Origin: Zygnema cylindricum
Taxonomy: Eukaryota > Streptophyta > Zygnematophyceae > Zygnematales > Zygnemataceae
NCBI GenBank assembly: GCA_037447655.1
Contig: JBBHKE010000368.1
Span: forward strand, 170,151-195,051
DNA length: 24,901 nt
Direction: 5' to 3'
Below, one piece after another: positions 1-24,901 of the stretch (positions are counted from its first letter, which is position 1; every line of letters begins with the position of its first letter). The notes under the pieces were generated by a model. The model was not told the DNA's origin and searched no databases. It saw only the letters and a program-made list of their open reading frames with translations. Both the position numbers and the translations under genes were made by a program.

Positions 1-118
1 GTCATCATCATCATCATTACAGTGTCATCATCAACAATATTATCATCATCATCATCATTATCATTATCATTATCATTATCATTATCATTATCATTACATC
101 ATCATCATCATCATCATC

Positions 119-150
<32 letters not shown>

Positions 151-440
151 GATTATGATCGTCATTATCATCATCATTATCAACATCATCTACATCACCA
201 TCATTATCTCATCTTCATCTTCATCATCATCATCATCATCGTCGTCATCATCATCGTCATCATCATCATCGTCAACATCTTCATCATCATCATCATCATA
301 ATCATTACATCGTTATCATCGTCATCATCATCATTATATCATCATCATCATCATCATGATCATCATCATCGTCATCATAATCGCAACATCATCGTCATTA
401 TCATCATCGGTATCATCATCATCATCATCGTCATCATCAG
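1..440. repeat. (ATC)n/(TCA)n trinucleotide microsatellite with (ATTATC)n segment
   Basis: An almost unbroken imperfect trinucleotide array, mainly ATC/TCA with interspersed TCG and TTA units and a run of hexamer units near 55-95. Open frames across it would encode only His, Ile or Ser runs, so I do not treat it as coding. It continues off the left edge of the window. Confidence 0.97.
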
Positions 441-530
441 AACTGCAATTCTGATTGGAAATGAACGGCGTAGACTGACGTAGTTCAAATGACGAACTTC
501 GGAACTGCACGCGTGATCTATCTAGATCAT

Positions 531-900
531 TTCTGTACTATCATGTCGGCAGAATTGACGCGAAGTAAAATAACGACTACGTCATTATTTCAGCGGTACT
601 ATCATCTCGGCAAGAAGACCGGGGTGAAAATGAACGAACACTACGTCATTATTTCAGCGGTACTATTATGTTGGCAGAATACAACCTCGCGAAATACAAC
701 AAGTAATATTGTTCCACGTGTCTACTTTCATTACAACAAAATTCTACAATCATTCAACGGCTCACGATCTTACACTAAAAAAATACGACGGTCAACAATC
801 GCTGTCACGAAAGACGACAAACAAAACTCAAAATGTTCAACGGCTCAAGATCTCAAACAAAAAAACCAATGATCAATTCTCGTTGTCACCAGAGACTAAG
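531..900. repeat. Degraded short tandem repeats (63-bp and about 84-bp periods)
   Basis: A segment beginning CTACGTCATTATTTCAGCGG occurs at 578 and again at 641, a period of 63, with a weaker partial unit starting near 531. A second unit beginning TTCAACGGCTCA occurs near 753 and 837, a period of about 84, diverged. Short open frames here are repeat translations with no recognisable domain. The rest of 441-1341 shows nothing else I can identify. Confidence 0.7.
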
Positions 901-1341
901 GCGACTACAATGCTTTCCCCTTTTAGAAAATGGGCAAAGCAAAAAGAAAATGAAATTGGAACATTGACATGTGACGGTTGTAGACGTAAGTACAACTTTG
1001 TGACGGATGAAGACGACTACAAAACTTTCGACAATACGCGACGCAAACAAAAATAGCGACAATTGTAGACGTTGTAGATTTTTGTCATTTTGTGACATAT
1101 TAGATGTTTAGGGTGTTGTGACATTGTGACGCCATGCTCACTTTTGACAACGTTGACGACACAAATTCAAGAACTTTTTTTGTTTTTCAAAAATCTTTCA
1201 TTTCATACCAGTATTTGTCATGCCTCAATTCTAAAAGTGTGAGATAAAAGTGACAGTGTAAGAGGGAGAGGGGAGAGGCGACGACGACCCAAAATTTTGT
1301 AAAGGACCCATGTTTGAAGTGGAGGTCCGAGACCCTTGCAG

Positions 1342-3986
1342 TAGTGTTGGGCAGAGGTCGCAAACGGTCAACCGAAACCGTAACCGACCGTTGACCAACG
1401 GTCCGCGTCGAACACGGAACGAATTCGGTTGCCAAATATGGGCGGCCGGGCGGATTCGGGCGGTTTATTCACAGGAAAAAAAAAAACGGTTATTGTCGAG
1501 TAAGCAAAAAACGAAAAAAAATGAAAGTTTTAAACTGTCCGTACTATCCAACATTATTGTACTTTGTACTCTTGGTATCTTGGAAGTACATTATCATCAT
1601 GATTACTGTTGCAAATTTGACACGGTAATAACACTATTCATTTTGCAAATCTTACTGGAAGATAATGGGCCGCAAATCGTACTCTATTGTAAAGTGTTTG
1701 GTTCAGGTATGATTTATTTTGAATTCTGTTTAGGATGGCTTTAATGTACATGTCATTATAACTTGTTTTGTTAATAAATATATATTTTTTGGAGCGTCAT
1801 CACTTTTTTCTTATCAATAATTTATATTCGTACGCTTATTTTTTTTATTATTATTATTACTTGGTTTGTCATGATGTTGTTTTTTATTTGTCTATCCATA
1901 AAATAAAAGTTTTGGTATAAACCTTATTTATTGATCATGGTAATTGTATGGTATTCTCTTCTTCTTTTTTTCCAAGGTTTTTAAGTATTTTGTCAAGCAT
2001 TGTTTGATGTTGGTGTTGCGTCCAACAAAAGTGTTAACATCAACCAACTGCTCCCGTCCGTCAATAGCATGAAAAACCACATCATATCTTCGGCCAAAGA
2101 TATTCACAGTTTGATCATCCCAAAACTTAGAGAAAATATTGAAAACAATGCTTCTACCACTTTTACGACCGATCTCTAGACCGAGAAAATTAAAAGTACC
2201 TCAATCATGTCAGTAACAGCTCATCGTATTGACAAAGAATTTCAAATTTATGCACGGACGCTTCAAGTCGATCATTTTCCGGAGGAAAAACATATCGCGG
2301 AAAAGGGTTTATCGGTTTTCAAAAATTGTTTGACCAATTTTGAAATTTCCAATTTTCATGTTTTGGAATATCGTTGCGATGTTGTGACCTTTAGTGGCTC
2401 TAACATGTGTGCGGCTGAAGGTCTACCGAGTATGTTTACTTGGATACCTTGCGCGGACCATAAAGTTGCTACAATTGTGACAAAGATTTTGAACAAGAGC
2501 TGATTTTCCAAAAAATACAAATACAATGTGGAAGTTCTTGAATAGTTTGATCTAATAGACGTGTGTAAATCATTTGTCGCGTTTTTCAAATAGAGTAATT
2601 TACAAAATCTTTTGAAAAACACTTTAAAACAAGAACACTCAACACAGTAGAATTCTTTGCTCCGAATGCTTAAGAGTATTTACGATGCATTTAATGAGAT
2701 AGGACTAATCGCTCAAGCAAAAAATAAATTAATACTTTTTGTTTGTATTGATAAGACTCACTTTACTAAACTTATACGATTTTTTGAAAGGTTTCAAGAA
2801 GCGACTCTAATGTTGGAAAAATAAAAAGAACTAACTTTACATTTGGTTTTCTTTAAACTATCGTATCTCCAAAACCACTATAAGATAAAAATAACATCTT
2901 ATAATGACGGTGAAAAAGAATGCCCTCCGATTCCCCAAACTTGCAAAAAATGATGTAACTTTTTATAAAACTTGCACTACCAAAGAAGGGTCTTCATGAG
3001 TATCATATTGTTGCGGCTCTCTTAGATCCCCGACAAAAATATAGGCTTGAAATAATTGGGGTATCGAAAACCGAAATCAAAAGCACGAGGGTCAAACTTT
3101 GGCACTCACAATCGACCTTGGTGATGACGTTGATTTTAGTAGTCCTCAACGTATAGCAAAAAAGTGAAAAACATCGCAAAGTATGGACGGTTTCCTCAAA
3201 TTTTCTGGTGAGAGCGATAACGAAATCGAGGTTCTTATTACCACAAACAAAAAAACGCTCGTTAATGACGGATTGAAACGTTGATTTTCCATGTGATTTA
3301 CTAAGATGTTTATTTTATAGATACATAATAAAAACTTTAACGTTTTTGCATAATTCATAACATAGCATAGTAGTCGAAAGAAAAACCGTCCAAAAAATGT
3401 AGCGAAAAATTTAGATTTGCGAGAGAAAAAACATTAATGTAAGAGTTTAAACATTAGTCTAAGAGATACTAACAAAATTAGGGAAAAATCTCTTGAGGGA
3501 GGTAACTAACGAGGAAAAAAAATATTTGTCAAGACAGAGCGCAAAAAGACAAAATAGTAAAAAGAAGAGGTACACGAACTGTTTTTTTGCAAAGGGAGAT
3601 GTACCACTACACCGCTCATTGTTATTAGTGTTAATAAGTCGAAAATCAGAAAATAGAGTTAACAACGTTATTTAAAGACGTGGACTACAACCTGCCACGT
3701 CTCCTTGTATTAGATAGTGTTATTCATCATAATTTTTTATTAACAGTAACAAATGCTCAACGCTAATGGCAATGAGTGTTGTAATTTTGTACTTTTTTTG
3801 GTACGGGAGGGTACAGTTAGTCGCGAGAAATCGAGTTTTGGTTAACTTATATTTTCGTAAACGCGTTTTGGTTAACGCTTATCAATTTAGGAGCGTGAGA
3901 TAACCCAGTCAGGCGTCGGGTACTCAGATTTTTGAAAAAAAAAACGGTCGGTTTCGGTTATCTAAAATTTTGACTTTTGTGACCTC
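1342..3986 (+). mobile_element. Decayed autonomous hAT-family DNA transposon
   Basis: The left end reads TAGTGTTGGGCAGAGGTCGC, a terminal sequence of the hAT type. At the right end the complement of the same subterminal block (CAGAGGTC, then CAAA, then AACCGAAACC and GACCG) appears in inverted orientation at about 3930-3988. Between the ends lies a broken hAT transposase (1965-3160). The length of about 2.65 kb is normal for an autonomous hAT element. The outermost CCCAACACT expected at the right end is missing: the sequence runs from GACCTCTG directly into GTGTTGGG of another element. No target-site duplication can be read. Confidence 0.75.
1965..3160 (+). pseudogene. hAT transposase, degenerate
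   Basis: The translation keeps hallmark stretches of hAT transposases in the right order. First comes an N-terminal block ending TTFTTDL, followed by TAG where the family has Trp (about 2177). Next is MSVTAHRIDKEFQIYARTL near 2207, then a region ending FTWIPCADHK near 2440-2460. A later block, STQ-stop-NSLLRMLKSIYD near 2640-2680, stands for the usual TRWNSLLRML. The C-terminal HIVAALLDPRQKYR lies near 3003-3045. These are RNase H-fold transposase features from family knowledge. Several in-frame stops and frame changes interrupt it, and I could not find the C-terminal dimerisation block. It cannot make a full transposase as it stands. It may once have mobilised the short elements nearby that share the GTGTTGGG end. 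Confidence 0.85.
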
Positions 3987-4258
3987 TGGTGTTGGGTATC
4001 GGTCAAATTCATATCGCGATAACTTCGAAATTCGATATATCGAATATAGATCAAGCAGAATCCTCGATATATCGTACCGAGACCAATATTGTTTATCGCG
4101 ATATATATTGCGATGTATAGTATTTTTTTTAAAATTTAATATTTTATGTAATATGTTATTTTAGTGATAAAGACAACTTTTTTGATACGCTCCGTACGAC
4201 GTGATTTCGTTTTGTGAATTAGAGGTAGACGTCGCAAAATATTACTGACAAAAAAGTA

Positions 4259-4755
4259 CACCCTGAATCGTTATTAGCGTCAATGATGCTAATTCGGTGC
4301 CCTTTTTTTTCCGAAATACAATCAATAATTCTATTTTTTCTTTTACGCCTTTTAAGGTTCTTTTTTTAATTTGCGTTTATAACGAAGTACACCGCGATGT
4401 TTATATTGTGGTGTACGGACGGGGTTTGTCCTGTCCAAAATGTGCTTTATGAAATAAAAATGTACAAAAAGTCATTTAATGTAATCGTGCACGCATGCAA
4501 ATGTGCACTGGGATAAGAGACGCAAACTCGAATATTCAGAATTCGGCGTACTAATTATCAGATTTTGTACGGGTACATATATTGATGTAGACATCGATAC
4601 AACGGGTATTTATTATTCGAAAAAACCCAAAAATTAGAGTTAGTGATTAATTAGTATATATGTGTTTTTTGATTTTTTTTTTCCCAATTAGCTTTAATAA
4701 CACTTATTTTATTTTTACCCTATTTATTCCTTGACGCTAATAGCGATTTGCGGTG
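4259..4755. mobile_element. Tc1/mariner-like MITE, long or interrupted member
   Basis: The ends resemble the inverted repeats of the two 215-bp elements at 5022 and 8106. The left end is CACCCTGAATCGTTATTAGC followed by a T-rich tract. The right end is GACGCTAATAGCGATTTGCG then GTG. It is flanked by TA on both sides (4257-4258, 4756-4757). At 497 bp it is more than twice the family length, so it is either a longer relative or has its own insertion. No coding potential is seen. Confidence 0.55.
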
Positions 4756-4905
4756 TACTAATTCTGTAATTTATATAATTACTTATTTTGTACGTAGAGA
4801 ACTTCACATACGAAAAGTTATAATTCTATTATTTTTTATTATTATAAATTATTCTATCTTGTATTATTTTATAAGTTCTATTCTAATTTTTAGGGGTTTT
4901 TTTTA

Positions 4906-4985
4906 GAAGTGTACATAATGTGAATTTTTATTATTATTTTTCTTAACTATTTTATGAAGTGTACAAAATGTGAATGTTTATTATT
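4906..4985. repeat. 50-bp direct repeat
   Basis: A block of about 30 bases beginning GAAGTGTACA and ending TTTATTATT occurs at 4906 and 4956 with few mismatches. It lies in AT-rich sequence between two MITEs. No function is apparent. Confidence 0.6.
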
Positions 4986-5021
4986 TTTTTCATTAATTTG
5001 GAGTAGCAGCAGCTAGTACTA

Positions 5022-5236
5022 CACCGCCAATCGCTATTAGCGTAGTGTACGCTAATTCCGTCCCGCTTTTTTTTATTCTATTCTTAGATAGAATTATCCA
5101 TACTATTTAAAAATACCCTAATTTCTAATTAAAGTAGACGATTTCTTTCAAAATTTTGAAATTCTCAATTAGTGTACACCATTGTAATTATTCTTATGTG
5201 CTAAAGAAACTTCTACGCTAATAGCGATTGGCGGTG
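5022..5236. mobile_element. Tc1/mariner-like MITE, 215 bp
   Basis: The left end CACCGCCAATCGCTATTAGC and the right end GCTAATAGCGATTGGCGGTG are perfect inverted repeats over at least 20 bases. The element is flanked by TA on each side (5020-5021, 5237-5238), the duplication typical of Tc1/mariner insertions. It is non-coding, with a T-rich interior. The copy at 8106-8320 has exactly the same length. Confidence 0.85.
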
Positions 5237-5289
5237 TAACAGTTGCATTCGCACAAGTAATGGCAGCAGCAGCAGTAACAATTAGCAAC

Positions 5290-5657
5290 TAGTGTTGGGT
5301 ATCGAGGACCAATTGCCGATATTCGATATATATCGAATTTTAGGTATCCGATAATCGATATATCGAATCCATGTACCTAGAAGCTAAATATTCGGATATT
5401 TATGCGATTTTGTTTTTTCTTCCTGATTTTTTTCTCACGCGCGCGCTCAGTGGGTGGAGGGGTTCTGTACGATTTTTCGTATGATTTTCCGTACTAATTT
5501 CTGTACTTATGCTGTATGGATACCCATTTTTTGCGATATATATCGCGATAATTTATGTTGGTCGCGGTACGATATATCGAGGAGTCTGCTCGATCGATAT
5601 TCGATATATCAAATATCGAAATTATCGCGATATGAATTTACCCGATACCCAACACTA
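5290..5657. mobile_element. hAT-like MITE, 368 bp, inverted relative to its neighbours
   Basis: The ends are TAGTGTTGGGTATCG and CGATACCCAACACTA, perfect inverted repeats. It is flanked by TTAGCAAC (5282-5289) and CTAGCAAC (5658-5665), an 8-bp target-site duplication with one mismatch, the size expected for hAT. The interior is rich in CGATAT-type palindromes, with a central GTAC-rich segment and a GC-rich core near 5439-5460. It is the same family as 16440-16892 but lies in the opposite orientation to the outer element it sits in. Confidence 0.85.
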
Positions 5658-5865
5658 CTAGCAACAGTTGCAATAATAGTTACATTTTTTTTTTAGAAAA
5701 GCCTCGATATATTGGGACACGATATATTGGCGATATATCGCGATATTTACCTTTTCAATGTATGGAAGCAATATATTGATTATCGGGTACCTGAAAGTCG
5801 ATACATATTGAATATCGGTAAATTGTCCTCGATACCCAACACTACGGGCCTGCAGATTTTTTCCG

Positions 5866-6450
5866 TACAATTTCGTCTTTTCCGTACATGCTAGTGACGG
5901 GCAGGGAGAAAAAATAGCGATTGCTCTCCCTCGACCTAAATTTTTACCACTCGAGTGGCGCGTGCGTGGGCCGTTTTTCATTCGCTGTTTTGGCGGTACT
6001 GTACTTTCCCTGAAATCCAGTCGCGAGGTGATTTCCGATGAAGTTTTTTGACGGGTTGGATTCTCTTTCCCCGAGGGTCGAAAAACGCAAAACGCCAAAA
6101 TGCGTTCACTTGACGACAAACATGAAGTACATTCAAAGTATCGACTTGACGTTTGCTGTACTTTTGAAGAATTGGTTTTCTCGTACGATAAAAGTTTTTC
6201 TCGTACGGCGTTGCGTTTTTGGCGAAAACGACAGAAAAAGTCGAATCTTTAATACATGGGGACATACCTTGAGTATTAAGACAGTTGTACATTATATGAA
6301 TGTTTTCCGTACAATATTGTACAAATATAGCCGAATAGTAAATCTGCCGTACATTACATGGATGTACGGCAATTTTAAAACGGTAATGGTTGACACCTGC
6401 AGTTCCGTTTCCATTTCGTAAAGTCTCGTACATAAAGTGCGCACTGTACA
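5866..6450. other. GTAC-rich non-coding stretch
   Basis: No gene is supported here. The tetranucleotide GTAC, usually as CCGTACA or TCGTAC, occurs repeatedly, with about eleven copies in the last 330 bases (6120-6450). Open frames on both strands show no domain and overlap each other, so I treat them as chance frames. Confidence 0.5.
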
Positions 6451-6630
6451 AAATAATATCGAATTAAATTTCAAATGTGAAACTTTAATGAACAATGCCG
6501 GTACCATAGAATTTTTGAAATTTGAACCAAAGATGATAATAAGATTCTCCTCAATTTTTTAAAAATGTATTTATAAAATGTTCTGCCGTAGAATATTATA
6601 ATTTCGTAATAAAAAGTAATAGAACTGAAA

Positions 6631-6754
6631 AAAAAAAAAAAAATTATAACAGAATCAAAGAAAAGGAAAGTCAACATTAAAACCACAAAATTGATAAGAA
6701 AAAAAAAAAAAAGGGGAAAAAAAAAAAAAACGGGATGAAAAAAAAAAAAAAAAA
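6631..6754. repeat. Poly-A-rich low-complexity tract
   Basis: Several A runs of 10-15 bases are separated by short interruptions, and the tract runs directly into the assembly gap. The homopolymers probably caused the gap. Confidence 0.9.
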
Positions 6755-6764
6755 NNNNNNNNNN
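6755..6764. other. Assembly gap (10 N)
   Basis: Ten undetermined bases inside a poly-A region. The true size is unknown if this is a fixed-length placeholder. Confidence 0.99.
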
Positions 6765-6791
6765 AAACTTATTTAGCCCTTTTTTGCGCTA

Positions 6792-6938
6792 CATGAAAGA
6801 CAGGCCATTTGACTTGCCGATTAAGTGCCTTTGACATGCCATAAAAGGCTATAGACATGCCAAAACATGCCATTTACATGCTTTAAACTGCTTTTCTATG
6901 CAACGTGAAGCATCATGAAAGACAGGCCATTTGACTTG
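6792..6938. repeat. Direct repeat, 25 bp identical, 122 bp apart
   Basis: The block beginning CATGAAAGACAGGCC and ending TTTGACTTG occurs at 6792-6816 and 6914-6938 without mismatch. The sequence between and after is full of ACATGCC and TGCC motifs, so an older ACATGCC-based tandem repeat is likely. No coding function is seen. Confidence 0.8.
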
Positions 6939-7076
6939 TCTTAAAATGCCTTTACATGCATTAACATGGTTTTTACATGCCTGATAATGCTTTTCTTTTA
7001 GTGCGAACGATTTAATCGTGACGAATTATACGTAACAAACGCATTGAACCTTTTGAAAAAATCGTAAAAATCGTTA

Positions 7077-7372
7077 ATGAATTTTCGTCCGTACTATTCC
7101 GTACATGTAAACAAAAATAAATTTCACATATATCGCAGTTTATACCATTTTCGTACATTTCCCGTATCTTTTCGTAATAGTCCGTACATTTTTGGTACAA
7201 TTACGTACATTTCCGTAAAATTCTGTTCAGTTTACCGGACAGAAAGTACTACGAAGTGCAACGTATCTTTTCGTCAAATTTCGTACATTTACCGTACAAA
7301 ACCGTACAGATATCGGAAAATACCGTACAGTTTCCGTGAATTAGCCGTTCAGTTTACCGGACAGAAAGTACA
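7077..7372. repeat. GTAC-rich cluster with duplicated segment
   Basis: I count twelve GTAC sites in about 296 bases, where about one is expected for this base composition. A 25-base segment beginning GTTCAGTTTACCGGACAG is repeated without mismatch at 7225-7249 and 7347-7371, and weaker similarity extends upstream of both. The open frame on the plus strand has no recognisable domain. Confidence 0.7.
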
Positions 7373-7531
7373 TCGCGTTTTTTCCCGATTTATTCAAAAG
7401 TCACGAACTATACGTTTTAATCGGAAAAAAGGAAAAAATCGCGCGATTTGAACAACTATGAAAAAAACTAAAAAAAATAATTAGAGTATTTTACTTTAAT
7501 TTATGTGATAGAACTTTTTCAAAAAGGAATT

Positions 7532-8514
7532 TTAGGGTAATCTTCCATCAGGCGTTCCCAGTAAATCGTACGGTCACGTTTACTGGCAGTAATATTTGTA
7601 GCACCTTTCCATCAGGTCGTGCCAGTGAAGTGAAAATTGTTTACGTGTTAGATTGCGATTGGTACCACGTAGGATTCTGCTGACCCGCCCGGGATTAATG
7701 AAAGTTTTGAAAAGGACAAAATCTCAACTGCGTATCTGTACGGGCGGACGCAGATTAAATATCTAGTAGCGTCACGCTAATGTACAATCTGTACATCCTT
7801 GTATTTGTCGTTGTTCCAACGGTCACGAAAACCGTTGCAAAATGAAAATTCGTACAAATGTCCATGAATGTACTATTTGTACGTTCATGTATTATCGCTG
7901 TACCAGCGGAGGCGTGACAAGATATCCTACAACCAAGATTTTGTCGTCGAACAGGGTGGCTTTGATGTCAGAAGGTACACGCCATCTGCCACATGTAAGT
8001 TTATAGCTTCACGTCCGTCGTGGATCGACTCTGACTTTTACAAGTGGACCAATCAGTAAGCGCAAAGTGTCCTCCTGAGGACAGTCGGAGGAGACTCGCC
8101 AGGTACACCGCCAATCGTTATTAGCATGTAAGTTTTTTTAGCGTATACGAATAATTAGCGTGGTTTACGCTAATTGGGAATTTGTAAATTTTCGAAGAAA
8201 TCGTCTATTCTAATTAGGAATTAGAGTTTTTTTCAAATAGTGTGGATAATTCTATTTGAGAATAAACAAAAAAAAGCGAGACGGAATTAGCGTACACAAC
8301 GCTAATAACGATTGGCGGTCTACTGGATAGAACGGGCGTTTGCGCCGAAATTTCAAAATCGGGCGGTGGAAGTTTTCGCCAAAAAGTCAGGAGAATCTTA
8401 ACGAATTTCTGGTAAACATCTTTTGTAAAAAAAAAAAAACAGTACGACTTAGTACGGAAAGGTACTTTCTCTAGTAAACAACCCCACTTTTCGCCTGATG
8501 GAAGGTTACCCTAA
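7532..8514. mobile_element. DNA transposon of unassigned family, non-autonomous
   Basis: The left end TTAGGGTAATCTTCCATCAG plus GCG is matched by the complement of the right end CGCCTGATGGAAGGTTACCC plus TAA, with 22 of 23 positions agreeing. A diverged second copy of the subterminal motif (CCATCAGGTCGTGCCAGT) lies near 7608. No transposase frame is visible. A mariner-like MITE (8106-8320) is inserted in it. The target-site duplication is unclear because the TTA/TAA borders are palindromic. A relative's right end lies at 13692-13714. Confidence 0.75.
8106..8320. mobile_element. Tc1/mariner-like MITE, 215 bp, nested
   Basis: The ends are CACCGCCAATCGTTATTAGC and GCTAATAACGATTGGCGGTC, with TA on both sides (8104-8105, 8321-8322). 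It has the same length and end sequences as 5022-5236 but a diverged interior. It lies inside the element 7532-8514, so it is the younger insertion of the two. Confidence 0.85.
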
Positions 8515-9259
8515 TTTATAGCTACAGTTTAGTACTTTATTGTTCATTTTTTATTTAATCCACAGATTGCACTGCGAAGACATCTTCTACCCTGTGTTTC
8601 TCCTCTTGTATTTCTTGTTTATTTTCTTGTTCTTTGTGTCATGTCCTGTTTCTTTAATCCATTATCTTTGAACTTTTTCTTTAATTTCTCTCTCTTTTGC
8701 ATATCATGCCCTTGCCTTCGAGAACCTGCATTGTTGAAAGTCACTAGATTAACACGATGAGTCACCATAGGGAAGTACAATGTCACGTCACAGGCACACT
8801 AGTATAGAATAGTGAAGTCATTGCCAGATATTATTTTGAGATCGCTTCTTGCATTGAAACTCAGACTATTCACCATAATTGGCGATCCTGGTTTACTTCA
8901 AATTTTGTTAGATGTCAACAAAGAAATGAAAGAGAAAGGAAAATAAAATCAAAGGAAAAAAATGATGTATTGTCTTCATAAAAGGATTGTAACCTTCTGG
9001 AGCTGTTGTGGCATATAGCTGTTCTCATTTTTTCTGATTGCCACTTTTTTTTTTCTACTGGTTGTATAAACTTAGCTTGAAGTTTCTGTCTTTCATTGAA
9101 GCTAATTGAATCTCAAATACCTTTACAGAAAGGATAATACATGGCGAAGTATTCATTCTGACAAAGTTTCCAGTTCTTCAGTTTTCCGTTTTCCGTTTTT
9201 CTTTTTTTTTGCCTTTTCCATTTTCTATTTAGTGTTGCAGTTGAAATTTGGAGAAAACT

Positions 9260-9943
9260 ATGATGGCACCCTTTTCTCTCTCTGAAATTTTAACTAGAGA
9301 TTTGGTTAATTTTACATTATCGGAAATTCAGGGATTGACAAACAATTCGATCCTGAATCTCGTCTCTCACCATTTTAAGAGTTTTACGGATCAAAATGAC
9401 GACAAAGAACCGTCCGAGAACCTTAAACATTTTGGAAGTCTCATTGACAATTACGTCCTGTGGGCAATTTCACATAAAGAAGATTATGAATTCGAAGATT
9501 TCACGACAATATTGGAGTCCATTCCTTTCAAAGCGAGGGAAAATTGTGACACAATATATACTGTGATAGATTCGTTGTTAGAGCGATATCCAACCATGAG
9601 TGAAAATAACTTGATCCGTTTATGTGAATTCTTGGATCCTCTCAAAATGTCCGAAAACACTATAGAATCTGCGATACGGAAGAATCGGATTCCTTTAAAA
9701 CCAGAATACGTTACCTCCTTATATTTTGTTCAAAAGAAAAAAATTCTCAGCTTGCAGAAAGATATGAAAAGGATTGAATTGAGAATAGCTTTGGAGAATG
9801 GTATGGAGAGGGAAGCAGATGCGGAAAATTATCAAATTGAAATTGCAGGAATCATGGAGGACATTGACTTGCTACAAAAGGAGTTAAAAAAGAAGAGTCT
9901 CGAAATCTCGACTTACAAGGAACTGAATCTGGGCAACTTAAAG
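9260..9943 (+). CDS. NPH3-domain exon (first predicted exon of the fusion gene)
   Basis: 228 codons from ATG 9260 to the donor. From family knowledge, NPH3 domains contain the run D-x-LYR-x(2)D-x-YL-x(3)HP-x-LS, then R(L/I)CRL(M/L)D, KLS and A-x(2)NERLPLR. This exon has CDTIYTVIDSLLERYPTMS, RLCEFLD, KMS and AIRKNRIPLK at the same spacing. The usual N-terminal BTB and the first half of the NPH3 domain are not recognisable. The diverged stretch from residues 1 to 56 may stand for the latter. The exon ends at AAAG/GTAATC. A TTGCAG acceptor-like site at 9235-9240 could join an untranslated 5' exon. Without splicing, the frame ends four codons later at TAA 9959-9961. Confidence 0.85.
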
Positions 9944-11651
9944 GTAATCTTTAACGTTTAATTTTCTATGTGGAAGAATTGCATATGTAAGACCTCTTAA
10001 ATTATGGTATGATATTGCAGGCCTTTAATAAGACTATGGTTTATTGCTTTACTTGGGAAGAAATTTTCATCCATCTGAGCAAGTGTTGATTTTTTTTTTT
10101 AGATAAGAATGTTACTGAAATTTTAGATCGGCCATTTGAGTCAATGGATGTTGACTTTGTTGGATTGGCACGTGGATGCCGGTTCAATACGGGGTAGAAT
10201 ATGGTAATTCCATAGTTGAAGCCGCTCGATATAAATGGGTACGGAACCCCGAGGATCTACATCGAGCTGGTGGCAAGTGGTTAGTGCGTTGATAACTCAA
10301 GTCAAAGGTCGTAGGTTCGAGCTCGGCTCAATTTTCCCCTGTGTGGGACATGCCGAAATGCCGAATCCCGGATTTCACTGAAGTAAATCTAACAGACTTC
10401 AGGCTAAACTTCAGGCTTTGTGGTCATGTTCTAGTCTAGTGGTCACATACTGAGCCTCATCTGTAAGGCTAAACGCCAACCAATGACATAATGAGACCTG
10501 TACATGTGCGACCGTATTCGGCTAAGTCGTTACATATTCGATGGTTCGCCGGTTTTTCTGAGGTGAGTCGGTGACATTGTGTCATAAATCGTTGCTGACA
10601 TCAAATCTGCGGACAGAATTCGAGTATCACGTCATTCGTACTGTACTCTAAATATTGGGTGATGTCGCATATCGCCTCGGATTGTACATTGCGGTGAATA
10701 TCGGATATCGCCTGAAATTTTGCTCTCCAGCAGGTACTGATCCACTCTTCTTTGTTTTATATTATTTTTGATGTTGGTTGTTCACAGATCGAAAAACAAC
10801 TAAAGATGACTGTAGCCACAGAAATAAGTGTTGATTATGGTATTCGTGATCTGATCTTGACCGGCGACGGAAATATTTTGATTGGCGGAGATTACATTTC
10901 TCATTGGAAAATAGAAACAAAGGAATGTTTTACAAAGAGACAAGATCGTATTGTGGCTGCTCTCGCTTACCATTCGGGACAACTTTGGGTTGCTTATAGT
11001 AGCGGAGAATTATTGTTGTTTGAAGTCACGAAAGAAATGGTTCTGAAATCCCAAGTTGAAACAGGGAGTTGTATCAAAGGTCCACTTAAAGCAAAAGAAA
11101 AGAACAAATGCTATGTGGGCGGTATTTCAAAAATTTTGGGTTGGAGTTTGAAGGAATCTAAACTCCAAAGTGACTGGAGATCGACTAATCGAATGACTGC
11201 TGTCACTTCTTTATGCAACGATGTGAGAAATCATTTGTGGTCAGCTCATAAAGATGGAACCATTATGCGTTGGACGAAAGGTCTTGACTTATTTCCTAGC
11301 GAGTCATCAAGATTGGTTTCTTCACTTGTGGCAAATGAATTTTTGTGGGGAGGACAAAACGACGGAAAAATATTTTGCTGGGATTTAGATGGGGAGTTTG
11401 TAAGCGATTGGAAGGCACATCCGAAAAGTGTTTCCTGTTTGTGTTTGGATGAAAGGAAGACTTTGTGGTCGGGGGGAGAGGAAGGAAGTATTCGAGGATG
11501 GGTGGAAACATGGAGAAAACCCATATGTGTGACAATTTTGAAAGCACATTCTGCTCCGGTGAGAGCTTTGGTTTGTGATTCGGATGGAAGTATTTGGTCC
11601 GGCGGTGATGATAAATCCGTAAAACATTGGAAGCCGGTCGAAGAAATTTGA
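9260..11651 (+). CDS. NPH3-coiled-coil-WD40 fusion protein (predicted, two exons)
   Basis: Predicted join: 9260-9943 and 10788-11651, 515 residues. An in-frame TGA at 9242-9244 sits just upstream, so ATG 9260 is the first usable start. Residues 57-158 match the C-terminal part of NPH3 domains without gaps: LIDNY, then CDTIYTVIDSLLERYP, RLCEFLD and NRIPL. Residues 163-220 are a charged heptad-like coiled coil. Residues 229-515 form seven WD40-type blades with LW(V/S/G) and (S/G)GxDG(S/K) strands. Intron: AAAG/GTAATC to TTCACAG/ATC, phase 0 on both sides; the unspliced frame stops at 9959. BTB-NPH3 proteins act as CUL3 adaptors in plants, but no BTB is visible here. A scaffold or adaptor role is only inference. 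Alternative: two separate genes. Confidence 0.65.
9944..10787 (+). other. Predicted intron of the fusion gene
   Basis: 844 nt, GT at the left edge and a T-rich stretch followed by TTCACAG at the right edge. Exon phases agree (0/0). The left half matches the sequence after the NPH3 copy at 18672-19262. It contains a tRNA-like SINE-type insert absent from the other copy. No open frame of interest is present. Confidence 0.65.
10125..10410 (+). mobile_element. tRNA-derived SINE-like insertion
   Basis: Relative to the second block copy, an extra segment of about 260-290 bp lies here; its exact edges are uncertain. It contains a Pol III A-box-like TGGCAAGTGG at 10271-10280 and a B-box GGTTCGAGCTC at 10314-10324, about 33 bases apart as in tRNAs. 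The region between can form a short D-arm (GCA/TGC) and a 5-bp anticodon-like stem (TTGAT/GTCAA) with a 7-nt loop. A full cloverleaf is not convincing, so it is a tRNA relic within a SINE-like insert, not a functional tRNA gene. Confidence 0.6.
10788..11651 (+). CDS. Seven-blade WD40 propeller exon
   Basis: 287 codons ending at TGA 11649-11651. Seven consecutive repeats of about 40 residues can be read. Clear strand motifs are LWVAYSSGELLLFE, LWSAHKDGTIMRW, FLWGGQNDGKIFCW, LWSGGEEGSIRGW and IWSGGDDKSVKHW. The W at the end of each stands where WD40 repeats have WD. The LW(S/G)GxxDG style resembles propellers of plant inositol polyphosphate 5-phosphatases, but no phosphatase domain follows. If unspliced, translation could begin at ATG 10806 (TVATEI...), which would give a free-standing propeller. 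No clear AATAAA follows the stop. Confidence 0.85.
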   Translation: MEKQLKMTVATEISVDYGIRDLILTGDGNILIGGDYISHWKIETKECFTKRQDRIVAALAYHSGQLWVAYSSGELLLFEVTKEMVLKSQVETGSCIKGPLKAKEKNKCYVGGISKILGWSLKESKLQSDWRSTNRMTAVTSLCNDVRNHLWSAHKDGTIMRWTKGLDLFPSESSRLVSSLVANEFLWGGQNDGKIFCWDLDGEFVSDWKAHPKSVSCLCLDERKTLWSGGEEGSIRGWVETWRKPICVTILKAHSAPVRALVCDSDGSIWSGGDDKSVKHWKPVEEI

Positions 11652-13714: not shown

Positions 13715-13848
13715 GTGTGAACGGTTTGGTCTATTTCGTTTGTGTACGTGACTTCTAGTACTTTCGGTTCATGCGTAGTACTTCTTGCAGTTTCGTTTCG
13801 CGTAGGTTAAGTCGTACTTTAAGTACTGTACTTCTCGATGTTTCATTT

Positions 13849-14700
13849 CGAGAAGGGAATTGCTAATCGCAGAGACGATTTTTGCTGCGCGCAGGTAGTT
13901 GTCAGAAATTGTACATTTGGAGTACAGTTTCGTACAAGATACGTACCTTTGATTTTAGATTTGACGGTCAATCTGTCGAACAACTTTGACTGGCGAAATA
14001 TTGTAACGGCGGTTAAAAAACTGTCGCGCTTGAGAACGTCGACCGTCATAAAAGAAAAACAATTCACACGGCCGGCGCAGGTTTACTGTAACAAAACTGC
14101 GGCAGCCACATATAAATAAAATGGCTGGGCGCAGATAGTTCACACTGACATTTGACTTATTCGCAAAAATGAAATCTACTCGCGAACCAGGACGCTGAAC
14201 CCGTAAAGTACGTTCTGTAGAGGTGTTGATTCGTAAATAGTGTGACTTCATGTGGTCGAGCGTGACGACGCGTCATCTTAGTTTCATCGATATTTAAAAG
14301 CGGGTACGCTTCTTTATTTTGTACTAAGTTTATTTCCTTTCGTGCGAGTTCATACATGTTGCACGTCGTCCTTTAATTGGTGTCAGCGTCCAAGTCAAAT
14401 GTCAGTGTGAACTATCTGCGCGCAGCCATTTTATTTATATGTGGCTGCCGCAGTTTGGTTACAGTAAACATGCGCCGGCCGTGTGATTTTTTTTTTTTAT
14501 GACGGTCGACGTTCGCAAGCGCGACACTTTTTTAACCGCCGTTACAATATTCCGCCAGTCAAAGTTGTTCGACGGATTGACCGTCTAATTTGAACTTAAA
14601 GGTACGTAGCTTGTACAAAACTGTACTTCAAATGTACAATTTCTGACGACTACTTGCGCGCAGCAAAAATCGTCTCTGCGATTAGCAATTCCCTTTCGAG
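13849..14700. mobile_element. Foldback (long inverted repeat) element
   Basis: Arms at 13849-14158 and 14392-14700 are inverted copies of each other over about 310 bases with scattered mismatches, around a 233-bp unique spacer. Shared landmarks on both arms are GGGAATTGCTAATCGCAGAG, AACTTTGACTGGC, GGCGGTTAAAAAA, CCACATATAAATAAAATGGC and AGTTCACACTGACATTTGAC. Neither arm nor spacer has a convincing coding frame. The arrangement fits a foldback transposon or MITE, and a transcript would form a long hairpin. No clear target-site duplication was found. Confidence 0.85.
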
Positions 14701-16439: not shown

Positions 16440-16623
16440 CTGTGTTGGGTATCGGGTAGTTTCATATCGCGATAATTTCGATATTCGATATATCGAATAT
16501 CGATCGAACAGATTCCTCGATATATCGTACCGGGACCAACATAAATTATCGCGATATACATCGCAAAAATTGCTTGTCCGTACAGTGAGAGTACGGAAAA
16601 CTGTACGAAAAATCGTACGGAAA

Positions 16624-17285: not shown

Positions 17286-17992
17286 TAAAGATCCACAAAT
17301 TAGGCTAGGAAGACATCTTTTACCCTATGCTTCTCCTCTTGTATTTCTTGTTGATTTTCTTGTTCTTTGTTTCACATTGCTCCCCGTCTTGTTTCTTAAA
17401 TCTATTATCATTAATCTTTTTCTCTGATTTCTCTATCTTTTGCCCATCACGCCCTTCCCATCGAGAACCTCCATTGTCAAAAGTCACTAGATTAGCATGA
17501 TGAGTCACCATAGGGAAGTACGATATCACGTCACAGACACACTAGGTATAGGACAGTGAAGTTATTGCCGGATATTATTTTGAGATCACATGTTGCATTG
17601 AAACTCAGACACTGCACCACAATTGGCGATCCTGGTTTCCTGCAAATTTTGTTAGATGTCAACAAAAAAATGAAAAAGAAAGGAAAACAAAATCAAGGGA
17701 AAAAATCATGTATTGCTTCTCAAAGGATTGTAACCTTTTAGACTTGTTGAAGTATATTAGTTGTTCTCATTTTTTTCTGTTTGCCACTTTTTGTTTTCCA
17801 CTAGTTGTATAAACTATGCTGGAAGTTTGTGTCGTTCATTGAAGCTAACTGAATCTCAAATACCTTAAAACAAAGGATATACATTGTGAAGCAATCATTC
17901 TGACAACATTTCCAGTTCTTCAGTTTTCTGTTTTTCTTTTTTTTCCTTTTTCATTTCCTATTTAGTGCTGCAATTGATATTTGAAGAAAACT

Positions 17993-18682
17993 ATAATATC
18001 ACCCTTTACCATCTCTCAAATTTTGACCTTAGAATCGGACGAATTGACATTACCGAAAATTCAGGGTTTGACAAACAATTCGATTTTGAATCTCCTCTCG
18101 CGCCATTTTAGGAGTTTTACGGATCAAAACGATGACTAAGAACCTTCCGAGAACCAAAAACGTTTTGTGGCTCTCATTGACCAATACCTCATGTGGGCAA
18201 TTTCACACAAAGAAGATTTTGAATTCCAAGATTTTACAAGAGTATTGGAGTCTGTTCCTTTTAAAGCGAGGGAAAATTGTGACACAATATATAGTGTGGT
18301 AGATTCGTTGTTAGAGCGATATCCAACCGTGAGTGAAAAAGCTGTCATTGGTGTATGTGAATTCTTGGATCCTCTCGAAATGTCCGTAAATACGATAGAA
18401 TCTGCGATGCAGGCAACCGGGTTCCTCAAAAACCACAATATGTTACCTCTATATATTATGTTCAAAAGAAAAAAAACTCTCAGCTTGCAAAAAGACATGA
18501 AGAAGATTCAATGTCGAATAGCTTTGGAGAATGGTATGGAGATGGAAGCAGATGCGGAAATTAATGGAATTGAAATTGCAGCAATCATGGACATCATGGA
18601 CTTGCGACAAAAGGAGCTAGAAAAGAAGAGTCACGAAATCGGGACTTACAAGGTACTAGGGCAACTTAAAGGCAATCTTTAA
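17993..18682 (+). pseudogene. NPH3-domain exon, decayed second copy
   Basis: It aligns with 9260-9943 over its whole length. Both tandem ATG codons of copy 1 are ATA here. Codon 49 is TAA (18137-18139) where copy 1 has AAA. A 1-base loss before GGGTTCCTC and a 1-base gain in the A8 run near 18468 put about 19 codons out of frame, exactly where copy 1 reads NRIPLKPEYV, the most conserved NPH3 stretch. Near the end, five bases are missing after TACAAGG. The donor AAAG/GT of copy 1 is AAAG/GC. An open frame still runs from GTG 18167 to TAA 18682 with good NPH3 and coiled-coil similarity (LIDQYLMWAISHKEDFEF, CDTIYSVVDSLLERYP). No WD40 exon follows. A short N-terminally trimmed product from a non-ATG start cannot be excluded but is unlikely. 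Confidence 0.85.
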
Positions 18683-19262
18683 GGTTTCCTTTTCTATGTG
18701 GAAAAAATGCATATGTAAGACCTCTTCAATTATGGTATGATATTTTTGGCCTTTAAAAAAACTAAGAGTTTGTTGTTTTTCTTTTGAAGGAAATAACGGG
18801 GTTTAAACATAGGATCTTTTCTGTATCCAAGCAAGTGTTGACTTTTATTTAGATAGACTGTTATTTGAATGTTGGATAGGGCTTTGTAGTCACGTCACAG
18901 TCAAGTGGTCACATAGCCAAGCTATAATAAGCCTCCAAGGGAGATCACCATCGAATATTGAACACTTGTAACTCTTGTCCAGCTACGGTAAATCTGGTCC
19001 TTGCTATTTGTGATCTACAATGGAACATGTCAATGTGTTCTGTGTGACATATGAAGACAACACCTTTCTGTACCTTGTGGAACTTGTGTGCCTTGCTTTG
19101 TCTAGCATGTTGCTAGAATGCCTGTCCCTTCAATAACTGTAAGGTTAAACGCCAACCAATGACAAAATGACACTTATGCATGTGCGACCATACTCGGCTA
19201 AGTCGTTAGATATTCGACAATTCCCCGAAATTTTTGAGGTGGATAGGTGACGTTATGTCCTT
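18683..19262. other. Intron-like remainder of block copy 2
   Basis: Non-coding, similar to the first part of the predicted intron in copy 1 (GCAAGTGTTGA, GTGGTCACATA, TAAACGCCAACCAATGACA, CGGCTAAGTCGTTA). A segment of about 170 bp near 18955-19130 has no counterpart in copy 1. Confidence 0.7.
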
Positions 19263-22292: not shown

Positions 22293-22478
22293 TAGGTGAC
22301 ATGAGTTTTACTTGATGTGGCTTGATTTGAGTGGAACTGTGAAAGATAGAATACGAGTAGACCAACACCAGTGATACAGGATAGACTGAACTGCTTAATG
22401 TTTTTGGTTTGCAGTTATTAACATACTTTTGTGTGTTTAGACTTTAGTTGCATTTGGATAGGACAATCTTCTAGTTAC

Positions 22479-23510
22479 ATGCCAACGGACTGGAATAATT
22501 TACAGTTTCTGGGTGGTACCACCAAAAGCTCCGGTTCTTACCGGGGGCTGCCCATAGAGTCAATTAAGACCGGCTCCCCTCCGACATGTTTTCCAAACTC
22601 AGAAGTTCAGTCGCCATTTTTAGGGTCACCCAATTTGTCTAGATCTGGTCTTTCTTCCCTCGATAGGTCTACGTCATCTATTTCTTCCTCTTCCACCCGC
22701 TGTTCGAGGGAAGAATCGGACATTGACTCACTTGACATACAGGGTTTAGGGCTACCGCCATCAATTTTCTTAGTGAAGAGTACCTTACACACTAATTCGT
22801 ATCCTTCTAGCGTAGGCATGGCTTCATCTATGGACACTGGAGGAAAACATCATTTTTGTTTTTTTGGTCTCAAGGAAACCATGTCCTTGTCACACTTTCG
22901 CATCCTTTTCAATACCGAAATGCGTGACCTCGCGTTTCAGTACCAAGGTCGTTATGACCTGTGGGTTGCTTTTCCTTTACTAGGGAAATACCTCAAAGGA
23001 TCTGCCCTATCCATTTATACATGGAAATATGAGGAAATTTGTGCTATGACTGAAATAGCACCTGCCTTTTCCGGAGCTCTAGCCATAATTGGCAACCCTG
23101 AAATTCCTTTCCAACCCGCTGTCCTTGCAATTTATGACTTCGCAGGCAATGAAATTTCACTTGAAATACCTGAGGTCCCTCATCAATTTGCAATGGCAGC
23201 TAAGAATGCAATTCCGGCTAGACCTGAAATGCTAGTCCCTCTAAGAGATCCAGTCTCGTTAATTTTCGATATATTACAGGACGAATATCGAATGCAGAAT
23301 CCTGACCAAGTTAAAGAATTAATGAATTTCGAATATCGAATGCACAATCCTGACCAAGTCAAAGAAATAATGAATTTCGAATGCAAACTGGGTGAAACAA
23401 CCCCGGTATTGCGGTCACGTATGGAAACTTTGCATGAAGCCCTACCGGATCTAATGTCAGAGGCTGAGGCGGTACAAACATCAGTGGGTCAATTTTCCAC
23501 ACAATCATGA
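22479..23510 (+). pseudogene. Retrotransposon Gag, main part
   Basis: 343 codons from ATG 22479 to TGA 23508. The N-terminal 120 residues are Ser/Pro-rich and low in order. The segment near residues 150-200 (YDLWVAFPLLGKYLKGSAL) resembles the capsid region of gypsy-type Gags. Residues 269-300 hold a perfect-register tandem duplication: EYRMQNPDQVKELMNF and EYRMHNPDQVKEIMNF, from a 48-bp repeat at 23283-23330 and 23331-23378. The same frame continues after the TGA with Gag-like hydrophilic sequence (RLTEIYGLKF, EKQTSWWDAHEPPK) to TAA 23712, so the TGA is probably a mutation. An alternative is programmed readthrough, which I cannot exclude. Confidence 0.7.
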
Positions 23511-23724
23511 CTGTTCATTCAGAATCGTCTGACCGAAATATATGGCCTTAAATTCACTTTCGAGCAGGCTACAGAAAATACTGTAAAGTATGAAAAACAG
23601 ACCAGTTGGTGGGACGCTCATGAGCCTCCGAAACCTTCACCTAAAGATTACCCTAATCCGAATACTAACCTGAATCCTAACTCGACAACTAATGGCCTAA
23701 CCAAAGACCTCTAAGGGCCCCCGC

Positions 23725-23938
23725 CATTGGATCTTTACCAACGACTCCTAGGGTGAGTATATGTTTCCGGTGCGGTCACAGTGGTCATGACGCACGCAAC
23801 TGTCCAGAAAAGGCAGCCACGTGTACCAACTGCAATCTAACAGGTCATTATGTACATCGATGTCACATTAAAAATCTTGATTTCATTTATCAAATTCAAA
23901 TCAAAAACGGCGGTATACCTGCTCGCTTGGCAAAATAA
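23725..23938 (+). pseudogene. Gag nucleocapsid with two CCHC zinc knuckles
   Basis: In a frame shifted relative to the Gag body, two knuckles follow each other: CFRCGHSGHDARNC and CTNCNLTGHYVHRC, both exactly C-x2-C-x4-H-x4-C. These bind nucleic acid in retroelement nucleocapsids. The frame ends at TAA 23936-23938. The shift from the Gag frame occurs between about 23688 and 23712. Confidence 0.85.
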
Positions 23939-24031
23939 GCCACTCCACCTAAAGGGGAAGAGAAAGACACTCCCCCCAAAATCAGCAAGATGGACCAAGA
24001 CAGAGCAATGATGTAGGCAACCACGGCGGCC

Positions 24032-24901
24032 ATGATGAAAGAGGAGTTTGCCGCGCTTATGGCGCAGGTCAAACCGCAATTAACAGGAATGGCCCGAACC
24101 GTAGTCCATATGCCCTCCTTTGCTGGACGATCTTTTCGAGAGTCAACCGTCGAACAGCGGGCAACTCTTTTCAAAATGACTCTCGATCATAATCGTGAGT
24201 TTAAATCCATTAATACTCTCATACCATTATCGTTAAATAAAGAACTTAAATTATCTATTGCAAAAACTGCCTCTTGCATTACCGCTGAAGCATTAACAAT
24301 TCTAGAGGGTAGTATACAAGACGCGTATAGAGTCAAAGAACGCTTGGCAATATTGGCTACCATGCTTGCGGAGATAGATAGCGATGCTAAATCCTTAGAG
24401 CTAACTCAATCAGCGCATGCATTACCGGAACTACAAAACCATCGTAACACCCTATCTCTTCAGACAATTACTCTCGAAGAACGCTCAAGTCTTACTCCAC
24501 ACATCAATTTCTTAGATAACAAACTAGGTAAGTTCACAGTTCATGGAATAGCCTCAGCTTTACCTCTCATGGACAGAGGGGCGAAATCAATTATCCTTGG
24601 ATCACATTTTGCCAAGAAAATAGGTCTTACTGCAGATACACTACAACCCACTACCACTCGTTTGTTCACTTCCGCAGGAACCATCGAACTAGTCCTTGGT
24701 ATGACAAAAGAACCACTATGTTTTCAATTTCAGTGTCATCTAAAAACGATTTCGCAAAAATATACGCTCACGCCTTGGTCACCACGTGTAGTGATTAGGA
24801 ATGCTTGGTCGGCCAAGACGTCATTTTTTCGAGTGGGGGGGGGGGGGTTGATATGCATGATCAAACATTTTCCTACAGACGAAACAATTTTCCGAACTGC
24901 A
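24032..24901 (+). CDS. Retroelement aspartic protease region, open at the window edge
   Basis: An uninterrupted frame of 290 codons runs from ATG 24032 to the last base of the window. It is in frame with the zinc knuckles but separated by TAA 23936 and TAG 24014. The first 150 residues are helical and Gln/Glu/Leu-rich, of unknown role. At residues 170-200 it reads KFTVHGIASALPLMDRGAKS, then IILGSHFAKKIGL, the pattern of a retroviral-type aspartic protease. The catalytic D-(S/T)-G is D-R-G here (D181, R182, G183), which argues against activity. Near the end, VVIRNAW stands where (V/I)LGMxWL is usual. A run of 13 G (24835-24847) follows. The downstream sequence reads more naturally in another frame, so the real frame may break there. 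Confidence 0.65.
   Translation, partial: MMKEEFAALMAQVKPQLTGMARTVVHMPSFAGRSFRESTVEQRATLFKMTLDHNREFKSINTLIPLSLNKELKLSIAKTASCITAEALTILEGSIQDAYRVKERLAILATMLAEIDSDAKSLELTQSAHALPELQNHRNTLSLQTITLEERSSLTPHINFLDNKLGKFTVHGIASALPLMDRGAKSIILGSHFAKKIGLTADTLQPTTTRLFTSAGTIELVLGMTKEPLCFQFQCHLKTISQKYTLTPWSPRVVIRNAWSAKTSFFRVGGGGLICMIKHFPTDETIFRTA

Follow-up and report, generated by a model that had tools for sequence, protein, structure and literature searches.

A 24,901-nt stretch of DNA from the streptophyte alga Zygnema cylindricum (GenBank assembly GCA_037447655.1, contig JBBHKE010000368.1, positions 170,151 to 195,051 of the forward strand; called the window here, at its full length) raises the question of whether an exon for half of an NPH3 domain and an exon for a WD40 propeller, found close together on one strand, belong to a single gene. 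Proteins of the NPH3/RPT2-like (NRL) family, among them NPH3, RPT2, and NPY, connect the direction of growth with blue-light receptors and related kinases. The window lies on contig C284 of the 352.8-Mb assembly and reaches that contig's end. We estimate at roughly 0.93 the probability that positions 9263 to 11651 form one two-exon gene predicted to encode the C-terminal half of an NPH3 domain, a coiled coil, and a seven-blade WD40 propeller, and that it is one member of a multigene family in which BTB-NPH3-coiled coil-WD40 is likely the older form. In this family a single phase-0 exon supplies the propeller and follows the coiled coil of a BTB-NPH3 (NRL) gene. For anatomy and mechanism taken as a whole, we hold our best explanation with moderate confidence.

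Coding exon 1 (9263 to 9943, forward strand, within a stop-to-stop frame of 9245 to 9961) carries a match to the Pfam NPH3 family PF03000 at 9362 to 9658, residues 35 to 133 of the window protein, which covers profile positions 148 to 256 of 258 (E value 8.5e-14; 52.3 bits against a cut-off of 27). A coiled-coil helix is predicted at 9731 to 9931, with approximate limits inferred by alignment to helix 376-432 of the database protein P0001, described below. The exon ends in TTAAAG at 9943 and is followed by GTAATC, the start of an 844-nt intron (9944 to 10787) that closes with TTCACAG; the intron ends are conserved, and the interior is not conserved between distant copies. The sequence GTTCACAG, up to 10787, directly precedes coding exon 2 (10788 to 11651, forward strand, within a stop-to-stop frame of 10716 to 11651), and both exon boundaries are in phase 0. 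Left unspliced, the exon 1 frame adds the residues V-I-F-N-V past 9943 and then stops. Exon 2 comprises the WD40 propeller and the stop codon, begins at the closing ("velcro") strand, and matches PF00400 (4.1e-8; 33.9 bits against a cut-off of 27) and Reg_prop (2.1e-10). The coordinates, frames, splice motifs, phases, and intron length were as an earlier, sequence-only reading of this DNA had described them. That reading had also predicted a protein of 515 residues from the first in-frame ATG, at 9260. Among 18 copies compared, an ATG is kept at the place of 9263 in 16 and at that of 9260 in 6; therefore, the start is better placed at 9263, which predicts 514 residues. A pyrimidine tract with an AG immediately 5' of the conserved start (9190 to 9240, forward strand) may be the acceptor of an intron in the 5' untranslated region. 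An in-frame TGA at 9242, between this AG and the ATG, excludes coding read-through from upstream.

Searches of the genome of the window gene gave 47 matches with exon 1, 48 with exon 2, 42 with a distant WD40 exon, and 32 in a genome-wide NPH3 search. Merging into loci took all 47 exon 1 matches, 16 of the 32 NPH3 matches, 45 of the 48 exon 2 matches, and 4 of the 42 distant-WD40 matches; those outside the merging were read as repeating or adjoining places already included. This gave 39 NPH3 and 36 WD40 loci. A WD40 locus lay within 3 kb downstream on the same strand in 28 of the 39 NPH3 loci, two of which, on C884, share one WD40 locus. This exceeds chance: as controls, same-strand WD40 loci within 3 kb on the upstream side numbered 4, of which two represent the neighboring gene in the C1287 array, and there were 2 on the opposite strand. 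Of the 11 NPH3 loci without a WD40 locus, the window holds one, a broken tandem copy, and the others are deep NRL-like loci (five) and close kin of WD40-carrying loci (five); conversely, 9 of the 36 WD40 loci lack an NPH3 exon within 3 kb on the 5' side. In a fetched set of 37 loci chosen by their NPH3 matches, 26 had the NPH3-WD40 pair, as did 20 of the 21 in the clade of the window gene. The exon 1 homologues include 20 further loci of this window clade, many of them broken. The family is one with rapid gain and loss, and the window gene is in a BTB-less, tandemly duplicated branch with many broken copies. Family WD40 exons without NPH3 within 3 kb upstream were seen at C1263:89205-90041, C1868:152642-153496, and C1264:493883-494605.

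Splice sites were checked in 19 of the 20 linked window-clade loci. A donor GT was present at the projected phase-0 place in 14 of the 19; C2053b also has GT at the projected donor, after a diverged tail with a stop, and was left out of the 14. C1263a and C2053a have a different exon tail, with other phase-0 donors available further upstream. The acceptor AG stood exactly before the projected exon 2 in 13 of the 19, and C884b, c, and d have AA there. The projected introns of the window-clade copies range from 168 to 1046 nt. In DNA comparisons with the C311 and C1868 copies, similarity stops at about 10027 and restarts at about 10735 (10783 in one), showing that the exons and the splice-site flanks are alike and the intron interior is not. 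The deep paralogues C550, C615, and C1915, with 28 to 38% identity to the window gene by exon, are likewise interrupted between coiled coil and propeller by an intron in phase 0 (the phase in C1915 was derived by hand).

Separate trees were built from 36 NPH3 rows (the short C2053c was left out) and 25 WD40 rows (the short C1086b was left out). Clades present in both were the window gene with C1086a, the C1287a and b pair, C311 with C1868b inside the C1868 group, the C884a, c, and d trio, the C1263 pair, and the C550-type group. The WD40 tree pairs C2053a with C2053b, which in the NPH3 tree fall into an open group of three with C884b. For the 24 shared loci, path distances in the two trees correlated at an r of 0.94, a value reached in 0 of 2000 permutations; within the 18 window-clade loci the correlation was a modest 0.38 (5 of 2000 permutations). 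A single clade of the WD40-linked NPH3 loci and their kin, apart from the five deep NRL-like loci, was not rejected (p-AU 0.39), which is no positive proof of it. Parsimony on the NPH3 tree required at least six changes of WD40 presence; therefore, loss or breakdown of the NPH3-WD40 pair has been recurrent.

Two protein database searches gave nothing at an E value of 0.001: one used exon 1 alone and covered 264 candidates picked by shared words under a length limit, and the other used the spliced window protein and scored the 7994 candidates that shared most words. Land-plant NRL proteins did not turn up in these protein searches either, so the searches say little about plants and do not imply that the architecture is absent elsewhere. 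Used as the query, an alignment of three spliced proteins, full-length paralogues included, gave 19 matches among 7995 scored candidates, and no other query reached P0001 and P0002. One of these, P0001 (730 aa, from a 3,023-base contig), holds NPH3 and WD40 in one frame, its coiled coil continuing into the propeller at the place of the window intron; the simplest reading is that it comes from a spliced transcript of a related species. Another, P0002 (529 aa), has BTB and NPH3 and ends a few residues past the place of the window intron. The other 17 matches had many WD40-type domains and no PF03000 among the domains listed. A search of the PDB by sequence with the NPH3 part of the window protein found no convincing homologue, the one match being unrelated (E value 0.55).

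Folded alone, the window WD40 exon gave no usable model (mean pLDDT 36.8). We therefore refer to a model of P0001 made with an alignment to P0002 and both window exons, in which NPH3 helices extend to residue 368 and are followed by one long helix (376-432) and 28 strands (441-728). Block pLDDT was 73 to 95 in the propeller and 51 to 85 in most of the NPH3 part, the whole-model mean was 63.9 with a pTM of 0.44, and residues 1-216 were unreliable. The order of the strands, 28 or 7 x 4, gives seven blades, closed by the first strand past the exon junction. The seven blades proposed earlier are predicted in a relative aligned with the window exons and not in a model of the window exon itself. Because of the co-linear loci, the recurring splice sites and phase, the largely congruent trees, and the continuity of P0001 across the junction, we conclude that NPH3 half, coiled coil, and propeller very probably belong to one spliced gene, as first proposed. 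The contrary outcome envisaged at that time, homologues always occurring as two separate genes, came out the opposite way, with co-linear pairs and an open reading frame crossing the junction.

Five loci, two on C550 and one each on C615, C2580, and C1848, carry BTB, NPH3, and WD40 in this order on one strand. Two of them splice in silico without a stop into BTB-NPH3-coiled coil-WD40 proteins, C550:20398-16780 into 823 residues and C615:12780-8114 into 792, each with a phase-1 intron after the BTB domain and a phase-0 intron before the propeller. Pfam places BTB in C550 at 1.1e-8 (35.6 bits) and in C615 at 3.6e-8 (34.0 bits) against a cut-off of 20.5, NPH3 above the cut-off in both (4.5e-20 and 7e-14), and PF00400 above the cut-off in C550 (44.7 bits). 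In C2580, C1848, and the second C550 locus, BTB was recognized by similarity, and these three contain stops or frame breaks. The description "without BTB" thus holds for the window gene as far as tested and fails for the architecture. Since BTB-NPH3 is the known plant form (PMC1257465, PMC8531357), BTB-NPH3-coiled coil-WD40 is likely the older form in this genome. The full-length paralogues hold BTB plus propeller; therefore, a BTB-NPH3 protein probably gained the propeller first, and BTB and the N-terminal half of NPH3 were probably lost afterward in the window branch. The earlier suggestion of a propeller that takes over the partner-binding role or adds to it has to be amended accordingly, as both domains coexist in the full-length paralogues.

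NPH3 is described as BTB, NPH3, and coiled coil and as a reported CUL3 substrate adaptor, with phot1 binding ascribed to the C-terminal part that contains the coiled coil (PMC8531357). Lipid and 14-3-3 binding need the last 51 NPH3 residues, past the coiled coil (PMC8531446). The algal proteins resemble land-plant BTB-NPH3 (NRL) proteins in having an NPH3 domain followed by a predicted coiled coil and, in the full-length paralogues, an N-terminal BTB domain in the same order. They differ in the WD40 propeller after the coiled coil and, in the window branch, in being without BTB and the N-terminal NPH3 half. The propeller also ends the algal protein, and the membrane and 14-3-3 tail of NPH3 is not in place; by eye, no RxS (14-3-3) tail was found in the last 55 residues of the window protein. 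Animal BTB-BACK-Kelch (KLHL) CUL3 adaptors share BTB, a helical linker, and a beta-propeller with the full-length paralogues. However, NPH3 stands here for BACK and WD40 blades for Kelch, the architectures are not homologous, and CUL3 binding is putative. F-box-WD40 proteins of SCF ligases (beta-TrCP, Cdc4/FBW7) likewise place a helical adaptor part before a WD40 receptor, whereas no F-box was found among the Pfam matches of the window exons, P0001, C550, or C615, and any BTB domain present would contact CUL3 directly. A domain survey describes propellers as the parts that bind ligands in SCF complexes and, in a model, in BTB-Kelch complexes (PMC1257465).

By analogy with these systems, full-length members would act as CUL3 adaptors in which BTB binds CUL3, NPH3 is a helical spacer, the coiled coil serves pairing, and the propeller is the substrate receptor. 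We put forward this mechanism as a tentative one, at somewhat less than even odds. Lacking BTB, the window branch would still bind targets and pair but would not attach to the ligase, and its product may be a competitor or modulator of the full-length paralogues, or a scaffold; a modulator role is rather doubtful. The family looks like a plant-lineage counterpart of the animal BTB-Kelch adaptors. With similar reserve as for the adaptor mechanism, we suggest that a streptophyte alga may have built a BTB-linker-propeller family independently of animals, by joining a WD40 exon to an NRL gene, with tandem birth and death of copies and a BTB-less decoy or modulator branch. No NPH3-WD40 fusion was described in the titles or abstract openings listed, in part as the top of longer lists, by a literature search that lay mostly outside subscription journals. 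The domain survey reports BTB-NPH3 in Arabidopsis alone among 17 genomes and BTB-BACK-Kelch as not found in Arabidopsis (PMC1257465). The family would offer an algal parallel to BTB-Kelch adaptors that is open to testing. An NRL-propeller fusion would further indicate that a dedicated partner-binding module is acceptable where land-plant NPH3 carries its regulatory tail. With BTB-containing, BTB-less, propeller-containing, and propeller-less forms in one genome, comparisons among them offer a test of what each part contributes.

Several observations weigh against this interpretation. In only 9 of the 26 linked loci do both aligned exons lack stops and frame splits. Window-clade pairs other than the window gene and C1086a have dN/dS ratios of 0.26 to 0.78; constraint is therefore weak or lifted in many copies. 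The NPH3 and WD40 trees disagree on the order of branches in the window/C1287/C1086c group, where C1086c and the C1287 pair are placed differently, and in the C884 group, among C884a, c, and d. Five close NPH3 paralogues, three with BTB upstream, have no WD40 exon within 3 kb (L026, L033, L037, L038, and L028; C2018:20503, C1515, C2528, C2475, and C2580:35174, respectively), so that some lineages can do without the propeller. The PF00400 match of C615, at 23.1 bits, is under the cut-off of 27, with Reg_prop above its cut-off there. In the P0001 model the coiled-coil helix is of low confidence (block pLDDT 45 to 68). Residues 1-173 of P0001 match an unrelated locus, C1686:73570-74076, at 70%; this N terminus may be an assembly chimera or a second fusion and is therefore uninformative on BTB. 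As to function, CUL3 binding, dimerization, and a substrate of the family are all putative, the CUL3 link of the full-length members resting on BTB homology. Finally, the top-face loops of the predicted propeller were not more variable than those of the bottom face (p 0.63), so that receptor-type diversification was not seen. As separate observations, propeller dN/dS exceeded NPH3 dN/dS in seven of the eight pairs with both ratios, the exception being the window gene and C1086a; the C1915-C615 pair was set aside in this comparison, as its NPH3 dS was saturated. C1515 and C2580:35174 still have AAAAT/GTGAGT at the former donor, a possible WD40 loss or alternative last exon, and residues 1-173 of P0001 appear by eye transit-peptide-like and serine-rich.

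The alternative that survives best concerns function. The propeller might be a docking scaffold of a light-signaling complex, comparable to the Gbeta subunit AGB1, which reportedly binds NPH3 in Arabidopsis, and not the substrate receptor of a ligase. In a Foldseek comparison of the P0001 model, the best PDB matches were Gbeta chains, and beta-TrCP1 (1p22_A) ranked 43rd (482 columns, rmsd 20.5). However, at 14 to 16% identity the Gbeta matches reflect the common seven-blade fold, and no chain named as a G protein beta subunit appeared among 24 sequence matches, nor among the best 60 of 106 in another search, save one "beta-like protein." We consider a scaffold role unlikely. Slightly less probable again is a decaying segmental duplication, in which the window gene would be a pseudogene in tandem arrays that makes no protein. 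Of the 26 linked loci, 17 have a stop or frame-split match in an aligned exon; the window's own tandem copy is broken; and the zinc-knuckle frame of a likely retroelement lies downstream. Against this, both exons are open and the splice sites intact in the window copy and in C1086a. The changes between them fall mainly at third codon positions (5/3/12 in NPH3 and 2/2/11 in WD40; together 7/5/23, or 35 in all), with dN/dS ratios of 0.19 and 0.09, respectively.

The window gene might instead still be full length, its BTB exon lying beyond a long upstream intron or diverged past detection. The pyrimidine tract and AG right before the start codon suggest an upstream exon, but the in-frame TGA at 9242 intervenes, and 16 of 18 copies keep the ATG at 9263. 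A scan of 1 to 9259 in its three forward frames showed no BTB, and none of 15 BTB matches from a genome search with one BTB domain of the family lay on the window's contig, a search that a diverged BTB could escape. The window clade also reached profile positions 141 to 256 alone in the genome-wide NPH3 search. These results make a full-length window gene very improbable. Two neighboring genes duplicated as a unit, one for the NPH3 half ending five codons past 9943 and the other for WD40 starting from the ATG at 10806, are hardly tenable. Each exon is open by itself, and the 9 WD40 and 11 NPH3 loci found alone would fit separate genes. However, the frame continuations past the donor are unlike in length and sequence among seven copies compared, whereas donor and acceptor are mostly kept; the C615 WD40 exon has no ATG able to start a whole propeller; P0001 crosses the junction in frame; and the 11 unlinked NPH3 loci include the broken copy and the five deep NRL-like ones. 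A plain NRL pseudogene beside an unrelated WD40 gene was rejected in view of the co-linear copies.

The tandem copy in the window (17291 to 18792, forward strand) repeats 8558 to 10063 with 83.8% DNA identity. Its broken NPH3 exon (17993 to 18670, forward strand) has no ATG, an in-frame TAA, and a donor changed from GT to GC; no WD40 exon was found from there to the contig end, and a remnant of its intron that matches 10461 to 10583 persists at 19137 to 19259 (forward strand). The nearest relative of 17993 to 18670 in the NPH3 tree is C1086b, on another contig, and not the intact window copy. Because the tandem copy groups with C1086b, the gene pair seems, from this branching, to be older than the duplication between C284 and C1086. 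Farther downstream, 22422 to 24901 are likely retroelement remains, with a zinc knuckle at about 23756 to 23938 (PF00098, 3.3e-5) flanked by two long frames without a Pfam match, up to the contig end. An inverted repeat of about 310 bp (13848 to 14158 and 14392 to 14699; 93% identical, 233 bases apart) resembles a foldback element. GRAS genes mark zygnematophytes and land plants, and 27 GRAS matches (matches, not genes) were obtained in this genome; together with the 32 NPH3 matches, they point to a streptophyte and probably a zygnematophyte. Copies of a dispersed repeat, 86 to 89% identical and in both orientations, occupy 3989 to 4111, 5474 to 5655, and 16442 to 16623.

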